Positions 5,464 to 14,428 of a DNA stretch of 64,000 nt are shown in pieces. Source of the DNA: Salinisphaera sp. T31B1 (GTDB taxonomy: Bacteria; Pseudomonadota; Gammaproteobacteria; Nevskiales; Salinisphaeraceae); contig NZ_APNH01000004.1 of assembly GCF_040361275.1 (NCBI RefSeq), forward strand, positions 248,001 through 312,000, written 5' to 3'. Both the position numbers and the translations under genes were made by a program. Within the stretch, counting starts at the first letter, position 1; the number at the start of each line of letters is the position of its first letter. The notes beneath the pieces are model-generated. The model was not told the origin of the DNA, ran no database searches, and was given only the letters and a program-made list of their open reading frames with translations.

Positions 5464-6527
5464 TCCGAGCCCAGGCTGTTATCGATCGCGCCGCATTGGC
5501 CCACAATCTCCAGCGGGTGAGGGACCACGCGCCGGGCTGCAGGGTGTATGCCGCGGTCAAGGCGGACGGCTACGGCCATGGAGCCACTACGGTCGCCCAC
5601 GCTCTGCATCAGGCCGATGGCTTTGCGGTTTCGAGTCTCGACGAGGCGCTGCAACTGCGCTGGGCCGGCATCGAACAGCCGATCGCAATACTTTCACAGA
5701 TGCTCGACGCCGAGAGCTGTGCGACCGCTGCCGAGCATGCGCTCGAGATCGTGATCTTCCACGACGCGCAGGTCGAGGCGCTTGCCGCCTCTGCCGGACG
5801 GCCCATACGCATCTGGGTCAAGCTGGACAGCGGCATGCATCGGTTGGGTTTCGCCTGCGAACGCGCCGATGAAATCGCGCAGCGGCTGCAGGCTCTGCCC
5901 GGTGTCCAGATCATGGGCTGGCTGACGCATTTCGCCTGTGCGGACGATCCCGACGATGGACTGACCGACCGTCAGCTGAGGGCGTTCAAAGACGCCACTC
6001 GTGGCCGAGCCGGGGACCGGTCGATGGCGAATTCCGCTGCCGTTCTGGCATGGCCCGATGCGCATGGTGATGTCGTGCGACCCGGAATCATGCTGTATGG
6101 CAGCTCGCCGATACACGACCGAAGTGCACACGTCCTCGACCTCCGGCCCGTAATGCATCTCAGCGCGCCGCTGATCGCCCGCCAGACGATTGCCGCCGGT
6201 GAGCCAATCGGTTACGGGGCAACCTGGCGCACCCCCGAGACCATGCCCGTGGGCGTGATCGGCATCGGCTATGGCGACGGCTATCCCCGCCATGCCCCCA
6301 GTGGCACACCGGTGCTGATCGGCGGCCGACGGGTGCCCCTGATCGGGCGGGTGTCGATGGACATGATCACTGTGGATCTGCGCGGCGCGGCCGATGTCCG
6401 TATCGGTGAACGTGCCACCCTCTGGGGGCCCGGACTACCGGCGGACGAGATCGCGGCGGCCGCCGGCACGATTGCCTACGAACTGTTCTGCCGACTGACG
6501 CCCCGCGTGCGTTTCAGCCTCGCCTGA
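5460..6527 (+). CDS. alr: Alanine racemase (PLP-dependent)
   Basis: 355 residues. The PLP-binding lysine is in the VYAAVKADGYGHG motif at about residue 34, the second catalytic base (Tyr) in GIGYGDGYPRHAP at about 265, and the C-terminal domain carries RVSMDMITVDL. It interconverts L- and D-alanine for peptidoglycan. The ATG overlaps the dnaB stop (ATGA), an arrangement known from other gammaproteobacteria, so translation is likely coupled. Confidence 0.96.
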   Translation: MIRAQAVIDRAALAHNLQRVRDHAPGCRVYAAVKADGYGHGATTVAHALHQADGFAVSSLDEALQLRWAGIEQPIAILSQMLDAESCATAAEHALEIVIFHDAQVEALAASAGRPIRIWVKLDSGMHRLGFACERADEIAQRLQALPGVQIMGWLTHFACADDPDDGLTDRQLRAFKDATRGRAGDRSMANSAAVLAWPDAHGDVVRPGIMLYGSSPIHDRSAHVLDLRPVMHLSAPLIARQTIAAGEPIGYGATWRTPETMPVGVIGIGYGDGYPRHAPSGTPVLIGGRRVPLIGRVSMDMITVDLRGAADVRIGERATLWGPGLPADEIAAAAGTIAYELFCRLTPRVRFSLA

Positions 6528-6775
6528 GACGGGCCGCTGTTGCCTGTGTGGCTGGGGTCGTGGAGATCGTGCAACTACCACGCTATTCTATGGGCGGTTT
6601 TCAGCGGCCAGACGGTGCGGTGGGGGCCGGCCGGCCAGCGGCATAACCGGAATGGCGTTGACATTGCAGACAGGGCCGATGCAGCGCGGGCGCCGATGGA
6701 CATGCCAGCTGATATGTGAGGCCCGATCGCGAATACGCAAACCGGGCTCGGATTCAGTAGCGGGAGTACAGTTTC
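6528..6775 (+). other. Intergenic leader upstream of the phc-like operon
   Basis: A 248-base gap. A TTGACA sequence lies at 6658–6663, but 17 bases downstream there is no recognisable TATAAT-like hexamer, so I cannot name the promoter with confidence. GGGAG at 6762–6766 is the ribosome-binding site of the next gene. I see no clear terminator for alr and no other gene. Confidence 0.3.
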
Positions 6776-8203
6776 GTGGCCATGGTGCACAGCCTCAGTG
6801 ACCTGATCGTCTTCGAGAACAGTCAGGGCGTGAGAGCGCGCGGCAATCTGGTGAAGGTTTCAAGATCCACTCTGATCTTCGAAGTCTACAACCCGTATTC
6901 GATCGTCCAGCTCAGCGAAGTCCTTCACCACGTCGAGATTCGCAGCGACGATCGGGTGATCTATCGGGGTCGCGCGGTCGTCAGCGGGCTGGTCAACACG
7001 GGATTGATGCTGATTGTTTCAGCCAATCCGCTGGACGCGTGGTCCGAGCTCGCCGGGCTGGCCGGTGACAGCCAGACCATTCGGGGCAAGATTGCCGATT
7101 TCGTCGCGGACTGGCAGTCGCATCAACAGCTGCAGCCGGACTATCAGCTCAGCGTCTCGCGATTGCGCTCGTTTCTCAGCGCCACGAATCGCTGGCTCGA
7201 ACATCTGGATTTCTACGGCGCGGACCGTGCCGAGGTGGCGACCGGGCTGAACGACGAATTGTTCCCCGACCTGGTCAGAGAACTCGTACCGCCTCTGCTG
7301 AACCTGCTGCAAGAGTTCGAGTACCAGGCATCGATTGTCGATGAAGAGTCTCGCACCACACATATTCGCTACGCGCAGGATGATCTTCACCCGTTGATCA
7401 TGCGCGCGCCGTTCGTGCACCGGGCGTATCACAAGCCATTGGGCTACGCCGGAGACTACGAAATGGTCAACATGATGCTGCGCGATGCCCGTGAGGGGCC
7501 TACGGTGTACGCTCAGCTCATCAACACGCTGTATCTGAAGACCGGACCCGCACAAGCCCATCGCAACCGGATCGATATTCTCGTGGACTGGCTCAAGCGT
7601 CGAATCGAAGGCCAGCGTAACGTTGAGGCAGAGCAACAGCTGCGTATTCTGAATGTGGGTTGTGGCCCGGCGATCGAAATGCAGCGCCTGATACGACGCT
7701 ACCGCGCTATCGAGCATTGCGATATCACGTTGGTGGATTTCAGCCAGGAAACGCTCGACTACACGCGAGAGTGTCTCGAGACCGCGAGTCAGGAAAGCGG
7801 TACGACACCGGCCATACGCTATCTGCACCAGTCCGTACACGGACTGCTCAAGCAGGCGTCATCGCAACGCCGATCCGCATCCGATACGGCTTTGGAGCCG
7901 GGATTCGATCTCATCTACTGCGCCGGCCTGTTCGATTACCTGTCCGATCGGGTCTGTGCAAGACTGCTCGGACTCTTCCACGAACTGTGCGTTCCGGGCG
8001 GCCAGGTGCTGGTCACGAACGTGCATCCGAGCAATCCATCGCGTCATGGCATGGAACACCTGTTGGAGTGGTATCTCGTCTACCGTGACGAAGCGGGCAT
8101 GCGCAAACTCGGTCGCGTGTTCAAGGACTACGACGTGTTTGCCGACGAAACCGGTGTGAACGTGTTTCTGACCATCGACAAGGCGAACGAGCCGGCGAGG
8201 TGA
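6776..8203 (+). CDS. phcB: PhcB-like SAM-dependent methyltransferase (3-hydroxy fatty acid methyl ester synthase family)
   Basis: 475 residues from the GTG that sits 9 bases after GGGAG; an ATG two codons later is the alternative. An N-terminal part of about 100 residues is beta-rich and PilZ-like, a middle helical part contains the KPLGYAGDYEMVNMM signature I associate with the PhcB family, and a class I methyltransferase domain begins at about residue 290 with motif I NVGCGPA, then TLVDFS and a late VPGGQVLVTNVHP strand. In Ralstonia, PhcB methylates a 3-hydroxy fatty acid to give the quorum signal 3-OH PAME or 3-OH MAME. The assignment rests on the signature and on the three regulators that follow; the product here is inferred. 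It overlaps the next gene by 4 bases. Confidence 0.75.
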   Translation: MAMVHSLSDLIVFENSQGVRARGNLVKVSRSTLIFEVYNPYSIVQLSEVLHHVEIRSDDRVIYRGRAVVSGLVNTGLMLIVSANPLDAWSELAGLAGDSQTIRGKIADFVADWQSHQQLQPDYQLSVSRLRSFLSATNRWLEHLDFYGADRAEVATGLNDELFPDLVRELVPPLLNLLQEFEYQASIVDEESRTTHIRYAQDDLHPLIMRAPFVHRAYHKPLGYAGDYEMVNMMLRDAREGPTVYAQLINTLYLKTGPAQAHRNRIDILVDWLKRRIEGQRNVEAEQQLRILNVGCGPAIEMQRLIRRYRAIEHCDITLVDFSQETLDYTRECLETASQESGTTPAIRYLHQSVHGLLKQASSQRRSASDTALEPGFDLIYCAGLFDYLSDRVCARLLGLFHELCVPGGQVLVTNVHPSNPSRHGMEHLLEWYLVYRDEAGMRKLGRVFKDYDVFADETGVNVFLTIDKANEPAR

Positions 8204-10821
8204 GTCTCAAGACCGACATTGCCAGCGCTTGGGAAACCGCCGATCGAGCGGAGCGAATCAGATTTTCCAAGATTGGCTGTCTTTGGGCGTTGGTGTTGAT
8301 GCCGCTGGGCGGCACGCTGGATCTGTTCGTGTATCCGAACTTTCTGTCCGAGTTCATGCTCATGCGCATCGCCAGCGATTTTGCAATTGCGGCGATATTC
8401 GCGCTCCACTTTACCTCGTGGGGTATACGGCATATAAAGGTCCTGCCGCTGGCATGGCTGTTGGTTCCGCAGCTGGCTATCGCTTACATGATCTATGCTG
8501 CCGGCGGATTCGGCTCTACCTATTATGCCGGCTTGAATCTGGCGATTCTTGCCATGGGTTTCGTCATGCCCTTTACGGTCGTCGAGTCCATCATTCTCGC
8601 AGTATTGACGTTGTGCCTGTATCTCACCGCCGGCTTGGTTCATACCGGCCCGAGCGCAGATCCCGGCCTCGTCTACAACAACGTCTATTTCATGATCATC
8701 ACGGCCGTAATCAGTGCGATTGCGGTGTATTTCAACCGGCGACGGCGTTACACCGAGTTCAGGCTCAACTATGAATTGAATCTGCGCAATCGGGATCTGG
8801 CCGAGCTAGACCGGGTCAAGTCCGAGTTCTTCGCCAACATCAGCCACGAGTTCCGGACGCCGTTGACCCTGATCCTGGCACCGCTCGAACGCCTGCTGGA
8901 GGCCGAGCGGCGTCTTCCGGCTGGAGTTGCCGAATCGCTCGATCTGATACGGCAGAATGGACTTCGTTTGTTGCGCCTGGTCAATGACCTGCTGGACGTG
9001 ATCCGCCTCGAAGAAGCAAAGGTGGAATTGGACCGGCGGCCGCTGCGTCTTGACACGCTGATCGATGGCGCCGTCCATGCCATGAAACAGTTGGCGCAGA
9101 CTCGCGGGATCGCGCTCGAAAACCGGCCGGCAAGGTCACCCATTTATATCTCGGGGGACCGCAGCGCGCTTGAGAAAATTCTGTTTAACGTGATCGGCAA
9201 CTCCCTGAAATTCACGAACGAAGGGGGGACGGTCCACGTATCGGTAGACGTCGGCGACGGTACGGCCATGGTCGCTGTCGAAGACACCGGCATCGGAATC
9301 AGTTCCGCGCATCTGCCCTACATGTTCGCGCGCTTTCGTCAGGGAGACAGCTCCGCAACGCGCAAGTATGCCGGTACGGGACTCGGGCTCGCCCTGGTCA
9401 AGGAATTTGCAGAACGTCACGGCGGCTCGGTATCGGTGACATCCGAGCTGGGTCGCGGTACCTGTGTACGAATCAGTTTGCCGACTTTGACCGAGCCCGA
9501 GATCGGGCAGGTCGAGCCAGACCGTGACCCGCCGCCATCGTTGAACTCCAGCGACTGGTTCGACGCCGCGACATCTCAATACGCCTTGTCTGCGAAAACA
9601 TCCGCGATCCATGGTGATGTCGCTGGCCACGGGTCAGGCAAGACCGTACTCGTGATCGACGATGAACCTGATATGCGTCGATATCTTGTCGATCTGCTAG
9701 CCGAAGAATATCGGGTCCTGGTGGCGACGAATGGCGTCGAAGGGCTCGAGATGACGCGTCGGCACCGTCCGGACATGCTGGTCCTGGATCTCATGCTTCC
9801 CGAGATCGACGGCCTAGAAGTATGTCGCCAGATCAAGCACGATCCCGACCTTTGGTCGACGCGCATCGTGCTGTTGACCGCGCGCGCAGAAGAGCCCACC
9901 AAGCTCATGGCGCTGCGTAACGGGGCCGATGATTTCCTGACCAAGCCGTTCAGCAGCATCGAGGTGCAGACGCGGTTGCGGAATCTTGCCCGCTCGGTGG
10001 ACCTGGAAGCGGATCTGCGCCGCCGCCACGCGGAACTGCAAGCCACCGTGGGCGAACTGCGTGAAACCCAGCATCAGCTGATCCATAGTGAAAAGCTCAA
10101 CGCACTCGGACGGCTTTCGGCCGGGCTGCTGCATGAGATCAACAATCCGTTGAACTACACGCTCACCGCATTGGAGTTCGCACGCAACGACCCGGCGGTG
10201 GCGAACGAGCCGGATCTGTCTGAAACGCTGGCCGACGTCGACGATGGCATGCAACGAATTCGCGGCATCGTCAAGGAGCTTCGAGCCTTTGCTTACCCGT
10301 CCAAGAACGAGAACGTCGTGTTCGATCTCGAGAGCTCGATCCGTGCGGCGCACCAGATCCTCAGCCATGACCGTGGGGATATCAGCGTAAACATCGAAAC
10401 AGAGGACGGCCTGTCGGTCATGGGCTCGCAGAACCACGTGACCCAAGTTATCGTGAATCTGCTGTCCAACGCCTTCAAGGCTCTGAGGTCGATGTCCGAA
10501 CAACGCCCCGGTCAGGTCAAGATCGTCGCGTGTCGCCATGCCGGCCGCGTTCTGGTCGCCGTGAGAGACAACGGCCCGGGGATCGAGGAGCCGGCCAGAG
10601 AGCGCATTTTCGATCCGTTCTATACCACGGCCGACGTCGGTCAGGGCATGGGTATGGGCCTGAGCGTATGTCAGACGATCGTCAACAATCATGGTGGCCG
10701 ACTTCGGGTCGATAGCCAGCCCGGCGCTTGGACCGAGTTCGTCTTCGACCTGACGCCGGCCGCGGTCGACACGGATGGTTCAGCCGAACCGGATCGGCAA
10801 ACGGCGGCGGCCAGCCGATGA
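8200..10821 (+). CDS. PhcS-like membrane hybrid sensor kinase (6TM–HK–REC–HK)
   Basis: 873 residues from a GTG overlapping the previous stop (GTGA). About six hydrophobic helices occupy residues 25–180, like the membrane sensor of CqsS/LqsS/PhcS. Then comes a first kinase: H-box ISHEFRTPL (His216), an N-box-like GNSLKFTNEG, and DTGIGI and GTGLGLAL. A receiver domain follows with phospho-acceptor Asp530 (LVLDLMLP) and a TKPF lysine. A second kinase follows with GLLHEINNPLNY (His645), NLLSNAFKAL, DNGPGIEE and GMGMGLSV. PhcS is a simpler sensor kinase, so this is an enlarged version. It probably detects the product of the upstream methyltransferase and relays phosphate to the two downstream receivers. 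Naming is by context and architecture. Confidence 0.78.
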   Translation: MSLKTDIASAWETADRAERIRFSKIGCLWALVLMPLGGTLDLFVYPNFLSEFMLMRIASDFAIAAIFALHFTSWGIRHIKVLPLAWLLVPQLAIAYMIYAAGGFGSTYYAGLNLAILAMGFVMPFTVVESIILAVLTLCLYLTAGLVHTGPSADPGLVYNNVYFMIITAVISAIAVYFNRRRRYTEFRLNYELNLRNRDLAELDRVKSEFFANISHEFRTPLTLILAPLERLLEAERRLPAGVAESLDLIRQNGLRLLRLVNDLLDVIRLEEAKVELDRRPLRLDTLIDGAVHAMKQLAQTRGIALENRPARSPIYISGDRSALEKILFNVIGNSLKFTNEGGTVHVSVDVGDGTAMVAVEDTGIGISSAHLPYMFARFRQGDSSATRKYAGTGLGLALVKEFAERHGGSVSVTSELGRGTCVRISLPTLTEPEIGQVEPDRDPPPSLNSSDWFDAATSQYALSAKTSAIHGDVAGHGSGKTVLVIDDEPDMRRYLVDLLAEEYRVLVATNGVEGLEMTRRHRPDMLVLDLMLPEIDGLEVCRQIKHDPDLWSTRIVLLTARAEEPTKLMALRNGADDFLTKPFSSIEVQTRLRNLARSVDLEADLRRRHAELQATVGELRETQHQLIHSEKLNALGRLSAGLLHEINNPLNYTLTALEFARNDPAVANEPDLSETLADVDDGMQRIRGIVKELRAFAYPSKNENVVFDLESSIRAAHQILSHDRGDISVNIETEDGLSVMGSQNHVTQVIVNLLSNAFKALRSMSEQRPGQVKIVACRHAGRVLVAVRDNGPGIEEPARERIFDPFYTTADVGQGMGMGLSVCQTIVNNHGGRLRVDSQPGAWTEFVFDLTPAAVDTDGSAEPDRQTAAASR

Positions 10822-11993
10822 GCTCGGTTCACGGCGCACCCATGGTGCTGTTCATCGACGACGAGCCACTGATCCGCAAATACTTCGAGCGCGCCTTCGG
10901 GCGCGACATGAATGTCTGCTGCGCGGCCAGCGGCGAGGAAGCGCGGCTCATTCTGGCGGATCCGGACAGCCAGATCGCCGTGGTGATGACCGATCAGCGC
11001 ATGCCCGTCGAGGACGGCGTCACGCTGCTGGGCCATGTCAAGGATGAATGGCCTCAGATCGTGCGAATACTCACCACCGCCTACAGCGAGATAGAAGACG
11101 CGATCGCTGCGGTCAATTCCGGCGAGATCTGGCGCTATGTCACCAAACCCTGGGACTTCGACGAACTGCGCACGCTGTTGCATTCGGCGCTCGAGGTCTA
11201 TCATGCCCGCGCGTACGAGGCGACGCTGTTGGCCGAGCGGCGGCGCGGCATGATGATGGTGGCCAGCCATATCGCCCACGAGATGCGTACCCCGCTGCGC
11301 AGCATCCATTCCGCGGCAACCGGCATCGAGCGTTATCTGCCCCGTCTGCTGGCCGGCTACGATTGGGCCATTCAGGCGGGCGCCGAGATCGAGCCGATGA
11401 CTCAGCGCCACCGGGATGTCCTCGCCCAGGCGGCGCTGGGCATGCAGCGGGTGGCGGACCGGGCCAACGGGCTGATTGATCTGTTGCTGGCCAACGCCGG
11501 CGCCTACCGTATCGATGCCGAGGCGTTCGAGCGCTGCGACATGGTCGAGTGTGTCGATGTCGTACTGCGAGACTTTCCCTTCGGCGAACGGGAACGCGAA
11601 CTGGTTCACTGGTCGCCGGGGCCGGGATTCGAATTCGTGGGCTCGTTCAGTTTGATGGTGTTCGTGCTGCAGAATCTGTTGCGCAATGCGCTACAGGCGA
11701 TAGCGGCCGCCGGCCAGGGCGAGATCGTGATCTGGACGCGGTGTGGGGCGGGTTACAACGGGCTGCATATGCGCGATACCGGCATCGGCATCGAGCGAGA
11801 ACACCTGCCCAGAATCTTCGACGATTTCACCAGTTTTGCAGGCGCGCGACATAGTGCAGGCGTTGGATTGGGCTTCTGTCGTAAGGTGATTACCAGTTTC
11901 GGCGGCCATATCGACTGCCACAGCGAACATCGACGCTATACCCAGTTCGATCTGTGGCTGCCCGTCTGCCAGGTCCAGCAGACCGCTTTCTAG
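10818..11993 (+). CDS. PhcR-like response regulator with C-terminal histidine kinase domain
   Basis: 391 residues, ATG overlapping the previous stop (ATGA). N-terminal receiver domain: FIDDEP acidic pair, Asp59 in VMTDQRMP, TKPW lysine. It is followed by a kinase with H-box SHIAHEMRTPL (His154) and an ATPase part with NLLRNALQAI, DTGIGIE and GVGLGFC. A receiver joined to a kinase output is the hallmark architecture of Ralstonia PhcR. There is no membrane segment or DNA-binding domain, so output is by phosphotransfer or protein contact. The receiver and linker resemble those of the next gene (TTAY...EDAI.AVN.GEI.RY.TKPW), suggesting a tandem duplication. Confidence 0.8.
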   Translation: MSSVHGAPMVLFIDDEPLIRKYFERAFGRDMNVCCAASGEEARLILADPDSQIAVVMTDQRMPVEDGVTLLGHVKDEWPQIVRILTTAYSEIEDAIAAVNSGEIWRYVTKPWDFDELRTLLHSALEVYHARAYEATLLAERRRGMMMVASHIAHEMRTPLRSIHSAATGIERYLPRLLAGYDWAIQAGAEIEPMTQRHRDVLAQAALGMQRVADRANGLIDLLLANAGAYRIDAEAFERCDMVECVDVVLRDFPFGERERELVHWSPGPGFEFVGSFSLMVFVLQNLLRNALQAIAAAGQGEIVIWTRCGAGYNGLHMRDTGIGIEREHLPRIFDDFTSFAGARHSAGVGLGFCRKVITSFGGHIDCHSEHRRYTQFDLWLPVCQVQQTAF

Positions 11994-12008
11994 AAAGGCA
12001 CGCACTCC

Positions 12009-13124
12009 ATGACCGATTCCCTGATCTCGGACTATGCCATTCTCTACGTCGACGACGAGCAGATGGCACTCAAGTATTTTCGTCGTTTCGTGGACCGCGA
12101 GTTCACGGTGCATACGGCTACCAGCGTGGACGAGGCGCTGGCCATCCTCGATCGTGAGGGGGCATCGATCGGCGTGTTGATCACCGATCAACGCATGCCC
12201 GGCCAGTCCGGCGTCGATCTGCTGAAAAAGGTGCGCGCCCGGTGGCCCCATATCGTGCGCATGCTGACCACAGCCTATGCCGATCTCGAAGACGCCATCG
12301 AAGCGGTCAACCGTGGCGAGATATTCCGGTACCTGACCAAGCCATGGGAAACCCAGACGCTGCGCACCGAACTGCGCCAGGCCATGGAAATGTTCACGCT
12401 ACGCCAGGAGCGCGCAGCGCTGATGCGCGAGAAGATGAGCGTATGGCAGCGTCTGGTTCAGCTGGGGCGGCTGCGCGATCTGGTGATCATGGCCCATAGC
12501 CTGGGTGGGCTGACCCGCAGCGACCGCGCAGTAATGGCCTTTCTCGAGGCGCATCTGGCGGGCGGCGATGCGCCGCTGGCGTCCGCCGAGCAACTCGATC
12601 TGTGGGAGGTCACCGAATTCGAGATCGAGCGGTCGATCGCGATCGTTGAGCACGTCCGTGATGCCATCGACGAGGAAACGATCTCCCCAACGAATCCACC
12701 CCGGCCATCGACCGGTCAGGCGCTGGTCGATCTGGCGCGAGCCGCCGGCTTGATCGTAAACGCCGAAGACGCCGACCGGGCACGGACCTGGGTTACCGAT
12801 GACGCCAGCGTCGCGCGGCTGTGTCGCGCACTCGCGAACGCAAACACCGGTCCCGATGCGCTGGTCGTCACGATCTCTCACGATCACGCTGGTTGGCTTT
12901 TGTCCTGGCGGAATACGCCGGACGACGATCGGACGCGTCAGGCGGCGCTGCTGAGCGTTTATCTATTGGCCTATCATCTCGGCGGGGAGGTCTCGGTGAC
13001 CGGCGCCGACACCGAACGTGGCTATAGTGTTCGTCTGCCGACCGAACGCGCCGCGTGTGTCGAATCGGCACCGCCGGACGGGTGGCTGAGTTCGTTGCTC
13101 GTGCGTCTCGAGGGCTGGGACTGA
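12009..13124 (+). CDS. PhcQ-like response regulator with degenerate kinase-like C-terminus
   Basis: 371 residues with GAAAGG about 10 bases upstream. The N-terminal receiver has YVDDEQ, Asp60 in LITDQRMPGQSG and a TKPW lysine. The rest contains no H-box histidine motif. Residues about 285–350 keep a trace of an ATPase fold (SHDHAGWLLSWRN, LAYHLGGEVSV) but lack the N, G1 and G2 motifs. It matches PhcQ by position, receiver sequence and lack of a DNA-binding domain. Last gene of the signalling operon; no phcA-type LysR regulator is nearby. Confidence 0.72.
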   Translation: MTDSLISDYAILYVDDEQMALKYFRRFVDREFTVHTATSVDEALAILDREGASIGVLITDQRMPGQSGVDLLKKVRARWPHIVRMLTTAYADLEDAIEAVNRGEIFRYLTKPWETQTLRTELRQAMEMFTLRQERAALMREKMSVWQRLVQLGRLRDLVIMAHSLGGLTRSDRAVMAFLEAHLAGGDAPLASAEQLDLWEVTEFEIERSIAIVEHVRDAIDEETISPTNPPRPSTGQALVDLARAAGLIVNAEDADRARTWVTDDASVARLCRALANANTGPDALVVTISHDHAGWLLSWRNTPDDDRTRQAALLSVYLLAYHLGGEVSVTGADTERGYSVRLPTERAACVESAPPDGWLSSLLVRLEGWD

Positions 13125-13162
13125 CCCCTGGCCAAAGCCCGACCGGCGTCGACGCGCGGCGT

Positions 13163-14146
13163 TCAGGACAGACGGATGGGGCTGGGCGCGTCACCGGCGC
13201 GCGGCGTACGACGGCGCTTGCGTTCGTCGCGTGCATCCGTCGACAGGTGCTGGGCGAAGAATGCCAGTTGATCGGCGCTGGACTGACGGAACCCCGCGCC
13301 GCGGTAGATATCGAAATGGCCGATCCGGTAGTGGCGTTCGGTGGCACGATCACCCGCATGCAAGGCGGCGGCTTCTGCGGCATAGGTCGGGGCCACCGAA
13401 TCCTCGTCGCATATCTGGATCAGCACAGGGCAGGCGAGCCGGTTGGCGCGCCTGCCCGGACGATAGAACGCCAGGGTCAGGGCAAAACGGGCCGCGATCT
13501 CGTTGCGCCAGTCGTCGGGCACGATTGCCAGGTATCCGTCGTAGGCATCAGCGCTACTCATGGCCGCGAGTGTGCCCGGGCGTCCGACGATCGGAATATA
13601 GTAAGGGTCGGCGCCGGCGAGGTTGGCGATGGCATCGCGGGTACCCGCCCAGGCCAGCCGAAGCAGATGCCAGGTGCCGGCATAGGCCCGCAGGTTGAGC
13701 ACAGCGGCCAGCCCGTCCATGAGGGGGCCCTGGGCGGTCACGGCGGCGATGCGCTTGTCGGCTACGGCGGCGGCGATCACGTGGCCGCCCGAGAACGAAC
13801 TGCCCCAGAGGGCGATACGCTCGGCGTCAACGTCGAGCTGGCGCCGGGCGACGCTGATCGCGACCTTCCAGTCGTGTAGCTGCCGCCGTACCGACATCAG
13901 TTGGCGCGGTTCGCCATCGCTGGCGCCAAAATGCCGATAGTCGAACAGGAACACGGCCAGACCGGCGTCGGCGAAGCGCTCGGCATAGGGTGTCAGGCCA
14001 GCGTCGCGCGTACCGCCCAACCCATGGGCCATGACCACACAAGGCACGCCGTCGGAATGACGAAATGCATCGCTGCGAGGCCGATAGAACCACGCCCGGC
14101 AGGTCGTGCCCTGGCTTACGAAATCGATATCCAGACGCTCGTGCAT
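13163..14146 (-). CDS. Alpha/beta hydrolase (dienelactone hydrolase-like)
   Basis: 327 residues from the ATG at 14146; an upstream in-frame ATG at 14227 would add 27 Pro/Arg-rich residues and is less likely. The alpha/beta-hydrolase features are VVMAHGLGGTRDAG (oxyanion-hole HG), the nucleophile elbow WGSSFSGG at about residue 120, and a late histidine in YRIGHFDIY with the acid in ICDEDSVAP. No signal peptide. The substrate cannot be told from sequence. It converges on the phc-like operon with only 38 bases between stops. Confidence 0.75.
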   Translation of the reverse strand: MHERLDIDFVSQGTTCRAWFYRPRSDAFRHSDGVPCVVMAHGLGGTRDAGLTPYAERFADAGLAVFLFDYRHFGASDGEPRQLMSVRRQLHDWKVAISVARRQLDVDAERIALWGSSFSGGHVIAAAVADKRIAAVTAQGPLMDGLAAVLNLRAYAGTWHLLRLAWAGTRDAIANLAGADPYYIPIVGRPGTLAAMSSADAYDGYLAIVPDDWRNEIAARFALTLAFYRPGRRANRLACPVLIQICDEDSVAPTYAAEAAALHAGDRATERHYRIGHFDIYRGAGFRQSSADQLAFFAQHLSTDARDERKRRRTPRAGDAPSPIRLS

Positions 14147-14428
14147 AGTCCCCGGAAAGTAGTGTGCAGGCCCGATCGGCGAACGTTGCGGCCTGGCCGG
14201 AACGCGTCCCGGACTCGGGGCGTGCATCAATGAAGAACAGCGCCTAGTATGCCGGTTTGTTCCGGCCCGGCGAAGTCGGGGCGCCGGCGGGCGCGGGGGG
14301 GCCGAGGCCTGCCGCCCGACGCGTGCCTTGCCTGACGCCGCTGCGCGGTGCCCGTATCGCGATGTGCGTCGAGCCAACCGGCGGCCGGGCACGGTGCGCG
14401 TTCGCCCGGACGCACCACGAGGTTGATC

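Follow-up and report, generated by a model that had tools for sequence, protein, structure and literature searches.

Phc quorum sensing is described, in the passages of the cited studies on which we draw, from Ralstonia and Cupriavidus, where the regulator PhcA is present, and the route from the Phc signal to transcription is there only partly resolved. A signal-making role has been reported for PhcB, and Cupriavidus necator JMP134 was reported to hold a complete Phc system whose products are 56-75% identical to those of Ralstonia solanacearum (PMC2842291), which makes Cupriavidus a fair yardstick. In Ralstonia, PhcQ binds and stabilises PhcA (PMC13320629), and mutations of PhcB R22 and PhcQ R154 (R154C) in nodule-adapted R. 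solanacearum lower responsiveness to cell density (PMC6989110). An ortholog search of 6,937 proteobacterial genomes found the phc cluster to have a restricted distribution in Betaproteobacteria (PMC10653808). Here we describe a phc-like operon in a 64,000-nucleotide stretch of the Salinisphaera sp. T31B1 genome (the window), in which the list of open reading frames (ORFs) and Pfam place four plus-strand ORFs head to tail between positions 6776 and 13124. The operon is a genuine but divergent Phc-type module that would work like Phc and Lvr and not as classic Phc. We consider it probable, short of confident, that it is a horizontally acquired Phc-type signal-synthase/sensor operon of a "long" form, with an Lvr-like relay and an output other than PhcA.

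An earlier note on this DNA had read from its letters a methyltransferase with a VGCGPA site and a KPLGYAGDYE signature, followed in phcBSRQ-type order by a six-helix hybrid kinase, a receiver-kinase and, last, a receiver whose kinase tail is degenerate. Both motifs are present (the first as NVGCGPA), ORFs and Pfam agree with the order, and Pfam and blastp against C. necator agree with the protein families. The Pfam matches comprise a methyltransferase in the first protein, two HisKA, two HATPase and one receiver domain in the second, a receiver and a HATPase in the third, and a receiver alone in the fourth. The genes had further been described as joined by overlaps; this is so at the first two junctions (GTGA at 8200-8203, ATGA at 10818-10821), whereas a 15-base gap precedes the last gene. 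The congener S. hydrothermalis has a corresponding four-gene set (first gene matched at E 8.1e-220), which puts the four-gene operon far above chance.

The phcS-like gene (8200..10821, plus strand; 873 amino acids, aa) encodes a long-form sensor kinase in which five or six transmembrane (TM) segments are followed by kinase, receiver and kinase. The protein is not of Ralstonia type, a point missed by the earlier note: alignment and profile annotation place a complete kinase-receiver unit between the sensor and the PhcS-type kinase. Its "six-helix" description is plausible, a hydropathy scan giving five or six segments depending on the threshold, but the second kinase unit around the receiver had been overlooked. 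From alignment and profile matches, the first kinase unit (H216; 8806..9489), absent from short Burkholderiales PhcS, and the inserted receiver (D530; 9640..10002) precede a second kinase unit (H645; 10054..10761) that is the counterpart of the sole kinase unit in the short, Cupriavidus-type PhcS. An alignment of the PhcS proteins of the window, S. hydrothermalis, genome G190 and a Paraburkholderia graminis plasmid matches up the membrane parts and the final kinase units, and both Salinisphaera proteins hold a complete kinase and receiver between them ("inserted" is a manner of speaking, loss from the short form being equally meant). Against C. necator PhcS, blastp gives the window protein 38% identity across its second kinase unit; a gapped match covering residues 19-428 has 30%.

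A kinase-receiver-kinase protein is also known from Leptospira: LvrA consists of PAS, kinase, receiver and kinase (H218/D524/H616) and is reported to autophosphorylate on H218, from which the phosphate goes either to D524 in the same protein or to D56 of LvrB, a receiver-kinase (D56/H161) (PMC5863495). Phosphorylation of the LvrB receiver activates the LvrB kinase, which phosphorylates LvrC, a receiver-anti-sigma protein (PMC13269768). Of the NCBIfam models, LvrA ranks first for the window PhcS, with 308.6 bits over residues 197-851, and also for each of four other long PhcS tried; the full kinase-receiver-kinase stretch is matched in the window protein and in three of these four. Neither of two short PhcS tried matched LvrA at E<=1e-60.

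The wider distribution of these loci was surveyed by scanning GTDB genomes with four aligned methyltransferases. Of 565 relatives the 80 most like the window were kept, and the shares of different groups are therefore no measure of prevalence. The 84 locus rows (the window, L007, L008 and L010-L090; L010 and L012 are the same locus) all carry a PhcS-like gene after phcB, less similar relatives beyond the best 80 being left out. Profile annotation divides them into 24 with long PhcS and 60 in which it is short or cut; one of the long rows, L018, is assigned from a fragment of 31 residues at the edge of its contig. The H-box histidine of the first kinase is kept in 24/24 long rows, the phospho-accepting aspartate of the inserted receiver in all 22 long rows holding that stretch, and the histidine of the last kinase in all 21 long rows holding it and in 59/59 short rows. 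By record title, the long form occurs in Salinisphaera, Ectothiorhodospiraceae, Nitrococcus, other gammaproteobacterial metagenome-assembled genomes (MAGs), Thiotrichaceae, Hyphomicrobiaceae, Planctomycetota and Deltaproteobacteria, the records with the last three titles being mostly MAGs, of which single contigs may be misbinned. The short form occurs in the betaproteobacterial rows, in G190 and in two MAGs titled Rickettsiaceae and Rickettsia. PhcR and then PhcQ follow on the same strand in eight long rows, PhcQ without PhcR in 11, and five are cut by a contig end; among the 60 short rows, both PhcR and PhcQ are present in 53, PhcR being spread over at least two ORFs in three of these. Prevalence, starting genome included, was 7/398 in the window's phylum and 8/294 in the phylum to which the Planctomycetota MAG of locus L022 belongs. 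As far as sequence can tell, the operon is one of a widespread variant and not a single-genome curiosity. The surveyed loci, as annotated, contradict the betaproteobacterial restriction given in PMC10653808, a disagreement that ortholog thresholds may explain in part. Among the matches listed in a search of the open-access literature, no title or abstract dealt with a long-form or hybrid PhcS or with phc outside Betaproteobacteria.

Some of these loci have features of their own. Directly upstream of phcB, two Thiotrichaceae loci (L017:2024-2719, L088:4207-4905) encode a protein of 231-232 aa in which only a receiver was recognised. In three Hyphomicrobiaceae loci (L019:14277-15446, L027:7313-8446, L077:14199-15311 (minus)) phcQ is followed by a convergent receiver protein, PhcR-like on the opposite strand; that of L019 is a receiver plus HATPase by Pfam. 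The two rickettsial MAG contigs, L066 (titled Rickettsiaceae) and L025 (titled Rickettsia typhi, a species title that looks doubtful), hold phcB together with a short PhcS; both also have a gene resembling phcQ, which is cut in L025. L007 (NZ_CP024936.1, 432595-436970), on a P. graminis plasmid typed as conjugative, has phcB, a short phcS, a lone receiver in the place of phcR, and phcQ, so that the phc system is also found on plasmids.

The phcB-like S-adenosylmethionine methyltransferase (6776..8203, plus strand; 475 aa) is identified by Pfam methyltransferase matches, similarity to PhcB, the tree and a structural model; its start is a GTG at 6776, with an ATG two codons on at 6782. Residues 10-468 are 47% identical to C. 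necator PhcB (L032) over 462 columns, nearly end to end (blastp). The predicted layout comprises N-terminal beta strands (aa 9-85; six strands in the model), a helical middle (99-283) and a methyltransferase domain (289-468), the model having pLDDT 85.8 and pTM 0.75. K220, D227, C382, D387, H417 and R437 are invariant in 83/83 PhcB rows (one locus counted twice). R22, kept in 59/59 short and 18/24 long rows and present in the window, is likely the R22 of Ralstonia PhcB to judge by the alignment, and its number also agrees in C. necator. Searches with the full-length model were filled by methyltransferase domains, the best fold match by Z being 3ocj (Z 19.7; 3.8 Å over 261 residues), titled possible exported protein of Bordetella parapertussis. 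Sequence searches of the PDB returned nothing below E 0.37 with the N-terminal domain and nothing at E<=0.001 with the whole PhcB alignment. A PilZ (PF07238; c-di-GMP) identity for the N-terminal strands, to which the six predicted strands had pointed, drew no support from profile comparison (probability 0.4%), and PilZ was neither among the six Pfam matches of the window protein nor among the 25 families listed, out of 33, for 40 members.

In a tree of 82 PhcB sequences and three shorter outgroups, made by a quick method, 57 rows form a clade (support 100) that is by title Burkholderiales/Betaproteobacteria, together with one plasmid and one genome without such a title. The window, S. hydrothermalis and an Ectothiorhodospiraceae genome form a group of three rows (support 99), and the addition of Nitrococcus and a gammaproteobacterial MAG gives a separate eight-row clade (support 99). 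By the test that the earlier note itself had set, the methyltransferase falls outside the Burkholderiales clade; it is, to judge by alignment, model and tree, a protein of full PhcB architecture yet not of the Burkholderiales PhcB clade. The root is unsure because the outgroup branches are extremely long (7-10 changes per column), and joins of long branches were flagged in this tree as in that of PhcS. The PhcS tree (78 rows, shared domains, likewise a quick method) returned the same eight-row group with support 100. Both trees group the window with S. hydrothermalis, the Ectothiorhodospiraceae genome and Nitrococcus, which argues that synthase and sensor share a history. The PhcS tree holds two changes of state between long and short, and either form may be ancestral.

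The phcR-like gene (10818..11993, plus strand) encodes a receiver-kinase of 391 aa in which D59, H154, N290 and D320 are present; its ATG at 10818 overlaps the preceding stop and makes a longer mechanical start at 10728 unnecessary. The product is 31% identical to C. necator PhcR (blastp), and the D and H are kept in 8/8 long and 51/51 short rows. The last gene (12009..13124, plus strand; 371 aa) encodes a PhcQ-like receiver (D60) followed by a degenerate kinase tail, from which the residues of the H-, N- and G-boxes are missing. Over residues 10-167 it is 49% identical to C. necator PhcQ (blastp), the receiver aspartate is kept in 20/20 long and 56/57 short rows (one gap), and neither Pfam nor alignment revealed a DNA-binding domain. 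When the tails of 26 chosen PhcQ were aligned with eight PhcR, six Planctomycetota and deltaproteobacterial PhcQ (L021, L022, L023, L053, L065, L086) were found to retain the H-box (HHIRN or HQIRN) with the N- and G-boxes absent; the Salinisphaera and Nitrococcus proteins are without the H-box histidine, Nitrococcus having an HIRN string one place on, and Burkholderiales tails are shorter and without the N- and G-box region. Read from this alignment, PhcQ is a decayed receiver-kinase. The arginine at window position R154 is kept in 16/20 long and 56/57 short rows, is residue 157 by count in C. necator, and is likely the one mutated in R. solanacearum PhcQ R154C. Compared with the PDB, the PhcQ model (pLDDT 82.8, pTM 0.69) matched LvrB of Leptospira first (E 4e-13) and then single receivers such as HupR; LvrC (9qih_A) came at rank 38 (E 3.8e-7), with low TM-scores of 0.31/0.38.

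As a query for PhcA we used a C. necator protein (L112) that we take to be PhcA by its N-terminus; it is encoded on the phcB contig, about 22 kb from phcB. The listing of LysR proteins in C. necator scored 150 of 273 candidates, and the nearest, downstream of phcQ, was rejected as it reads by eye as OxyR. Among 16 operon-bearing genomes, only C. pinatubonensis, the positive control, gave a 94% match; in the other 15 PhcA was not found, none of the listed matches exceeding 32%. The best LysR matches were 28% and 30% in the window genome (whole, and rated complete), 28% in S. hydrothermalis, 32% in Paraburkholderia atlantica, 31% in Hydrogenophaga pseudoflava and up to 31% in Polaromonas sp. C04; seven of the 16 genomes, Nitrococcus mobilis included, had no match at E<=1e-15. 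The absence is weaker in eight of the 16, which are titled MAG. The earlier claim that no phcA lies near the operon thus extends to the whole genome (28%/30% against 94% in the control), and with no PhcA found there the output must, as that note also held, differ from that of Ralstonia. Going by these searches, the absence is not special to the window genome, only Cupriavidus having PhcA among the 16, and suggests that PhcA is not part of the Phc core.

Candidates for another output were sought by clustering the flanking genes of 23 long-form and 10 chosen short loci. Beyond clusters 1 and 2 (phc and other signalling genes), no cluster spanned more than five loci, and most lay within one genus or group; Pfam revealed no obvious output among 10 chosen flanking genes. 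An LvrC-like protein was sought with HATPase_c_2 in four genomes, each of which returned 7-12 matches; the frames were as long as those of histidine kinases, and the search was uninformative. In three Planctomycetota operons the end of phcQ overlaps the start of an additional gene encoding 259-274 aa (L021:11530-12354, L022:14220-14999, L023:6987-7793), a possible output component of the Planctomycetota lineage; that of L021 has no Pfam match.

The Salinisphaera genome that bears the window (4.36 Mb, nine contigs, completeness 100) has alr (by Pfam) immediately upstream of the operon and, read from translation, dnaB before it; an opposite-strand alpha/beta hydrolase gene and then radA (again by translation) lie downstream. 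Two of 14 Salinisphaera genomes, the starting genome counted, hold a full-length relative of the methyltransferase; three further matches, elsewhere in the order, are partial. In the second genome, S. hydrothermalis, the operon sits at a different place, beside a gene that reads as leuA. An unoccupied site, with alr within 1.5 kb of the hydrolase gene, is found in 11 of the 13 other Salinisphaera genomes, S. hydrothermalis included; of the two exceptions, one is without alr in the stretch examined and one has only a distant hydrolase gene. The GC content of the operon is 60.6%, against 64.3% upstream and 65.2% downstream. The sporadic occurrence in the genus, the different places, the adjacency of the flanking genes in 11 of 13 genomes and the lower GC indicate that the operon was probably acquired horizontally; a single gain followed by a move and two separate gains both fit the Salinisphaera pattern. 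The hydrolase gene (13163-14233, minus strand) was considered as a methyl-ester esterase partner and rejected: it has matches in 14/14 Salinisphaera genomes (in one only 35% identical), 12 of them without the operon, and so lies outside the island. A similar gene (cluster 11; a chloride channel protein by the plasmid annotation) lies a few kilobases upstream of phcB in S. hydrothermalis (L012:4050-6041) and on the P. graminis plasmid (L007), by chance or as shared cargo.

By analogy with PhcB, the methyltransferase would make a (3-hydroxy) fatty acid methyl ester that leaves the cell and is sensed by the membrane part of PhcS. The architecture suggests that the first PhcS kinase would then be phosphorylated on H216 and pass its phosphate to its own receiver (D530) and to that of PhcR (D59). 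After the model of LvrA-LvrB, these two receivers would gate the second kinase of PhcS (H645) and that of PhcR (H154). The relay would end on the PhcQ receiver (D60). Since the dead kinase tail of PhcQ shows no DNA-binding domain, the protein may act by binding a partner, which is PhcA in Ralstonia and would be another protein here, as no PhcA was found in the genome. More tentatively, and possibly, the Phc core could be an old, PhcA-independent module spread over several phyla. In that view a lipid methyl ester produced by the cell itself would drive a relay of three steps like that of Lvr (kinase-receiver-kinase, receiver-kinase, receiver-pseudokinase), at the end of which PhcQ, with its dead kinase, would switch transcription by binding to a sigma factor, an anti-sigma factor or some other partner; the short-PhcS/PhcA system of Ralstonia would be a simplified and rewired derivative.

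Several observations count against a horizontally acquired long-form operon with an Lvr-like relay. The methyltransferase lies outside the 57-row Burkholderiales clade that contains the characterised enzymes, and 6 of the 24 long rows have another residue in place of R22. The LvrA score of 308.6 bits falls far short of the curated cut-off of 1200, which makes the comparison with Lvr one of architecture and not of family, and the TM-score between PhcQ and LvrB is only about 0.3. No sigma-70 promoter-like site was found in 6450-13300, and PhcS could sense another ligand. Were the operon instead classic Ralstonia-type Phc quorum sensing merely transferred to a gammaproteobacterium, its gene order, its two overlapping junctions, the 47% identity to C. 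necator PhcB and the counterparts of R22 and R154 would all be accounted for. We nevertheless judge this very unlikely, as the kinase-receiver unit in PhcS and the failure to find PhcA in the genome already contradict it, and the placement of PhcB outside the Burkholderiales clade leaves a recent origin from Ralstonia or Cupriavidus unsupported.

A weightier alternative, albeit one we still regard as rather unlikely, is a two-component operon that senses fatty acids or lipids and has no part in quorum sensing, its methyltransferase producing some other molecule or acting on a protein. The fold of this enzyme is a generic one, and CheR-like Pfam matches, weak as they are (18/40 members at E<=1, best 2.9e-5), would suit such a role; against it, the match to PhcB, a reported signal maker, includes the N-terminal domain, and the sensor gene follows phcB in every one of the 84 locus rows. 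We give little credence to a recently acquired island without function in its host. The sporadic occurrence (2/14 in the genus), the position between alr and a hydrolase gene common to the genus, the lower GC and the lack of a consensus promoter in our search would agree with it. All four frames are open, however, with catalytic and phosphorylation residues kept, and the S. hydrothermalis copy, whose methyltransferase and kinase are 71% and 59% identical to those of the window, is open in all four genes too, which indicates that the frames have been kept open over a long divergence.

The loci described here extend the range of phc to Gammaproteobacteria, including the isolates Salinisphaera hydrothermalis and Nitrococcus mobilis; outside that class, phc is found in records that bear the titles Hyphomicrobiaceae, Planctomycetota and Deltaproteobacteria. 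Signalling of the Phc kind looks, from the genes present, broader than described. Long-form systems in environmental bacteria would offer a PhcS-PhcR-PhcQ relay separable from PhcA and outside a plant pathogen, and the likeness to Lvr supplies a concrete phosphorelay model.

Set beside the Phc system of R. solanacearum and Cupriavidus, the Salinisphaera operon shares the gene order, the PhcB N-terminal domain, the membrane sensor, the PhcS-type kinase, the receiver-kinase PhcR, a PhcQ receiver in which no DNA-binding domain is seen, and PhcB R22; PhcQ R154 is probably shared as well. It differs in the kinase-receiver unit of PhcS, whose Phc counterpart joins the membrane domain directly to one kinase; in its genome, where no PhcA was found; in a PhcB of a separate clade; and in a PhcQ with a longer tail (371 aa against 335 aa in Cupriavidus). 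With Lvr the operon shares a kinase-receiver-kinase protein and a receiver-kinase partner encoded in one operon (H216/D530/H645 and D59/H154 here), proteins without a DNA-binding domain, and a PhcQ model that resembles LvrB and, at a lower rank, LvrC, at low TM-scores. LvrA, in contrast, is reported to lack TM regions, to reside in the cytoplasm and to contain a PAS domain (PMC5863495), whereas the window PhcS has predicted TM segments, which points to a common wiring plan and not a common family. The portions of PMC5863495 and PMC13269768 on which we draw mention no signal-synthase gene for Lvr, and LvrC is described there as a receiver-anti-sigma protein, unlike PhcQ with its decayed kinase tail.

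More distant likenesses are found in other systems. The sensors of Lqs and Cqs, which are systems of alpha-hydroxyketone signalling, have a multi-TM domain. As in our operon, a synthase gene is clustered with a membrane kinase gene in these systems (PMC10653808, PMC3376566), LqsA being a pyridoxal-phosphate enzyme (PMC10653808) and the enzyme of the window operon a methyltransferase. Class I methyltransferases encoded on plasmids of Rhizobium, Pseudanabaena, Pantoea and other genera match the C-terminal ~240-340 residues of the window methyltransferase at ~23-29% identity (29 of 34 records listed), the N-terminal domain lying outside the match. Of four such loci viewed, one carries no annotation; in the other three, annotation indicates no PhcS-, PhcR- or PhcQ-like neighbours. 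At the Pseudanabaena plasmid locus, genes for a HAMP kinase and for a regulator lie on the opposite strand.

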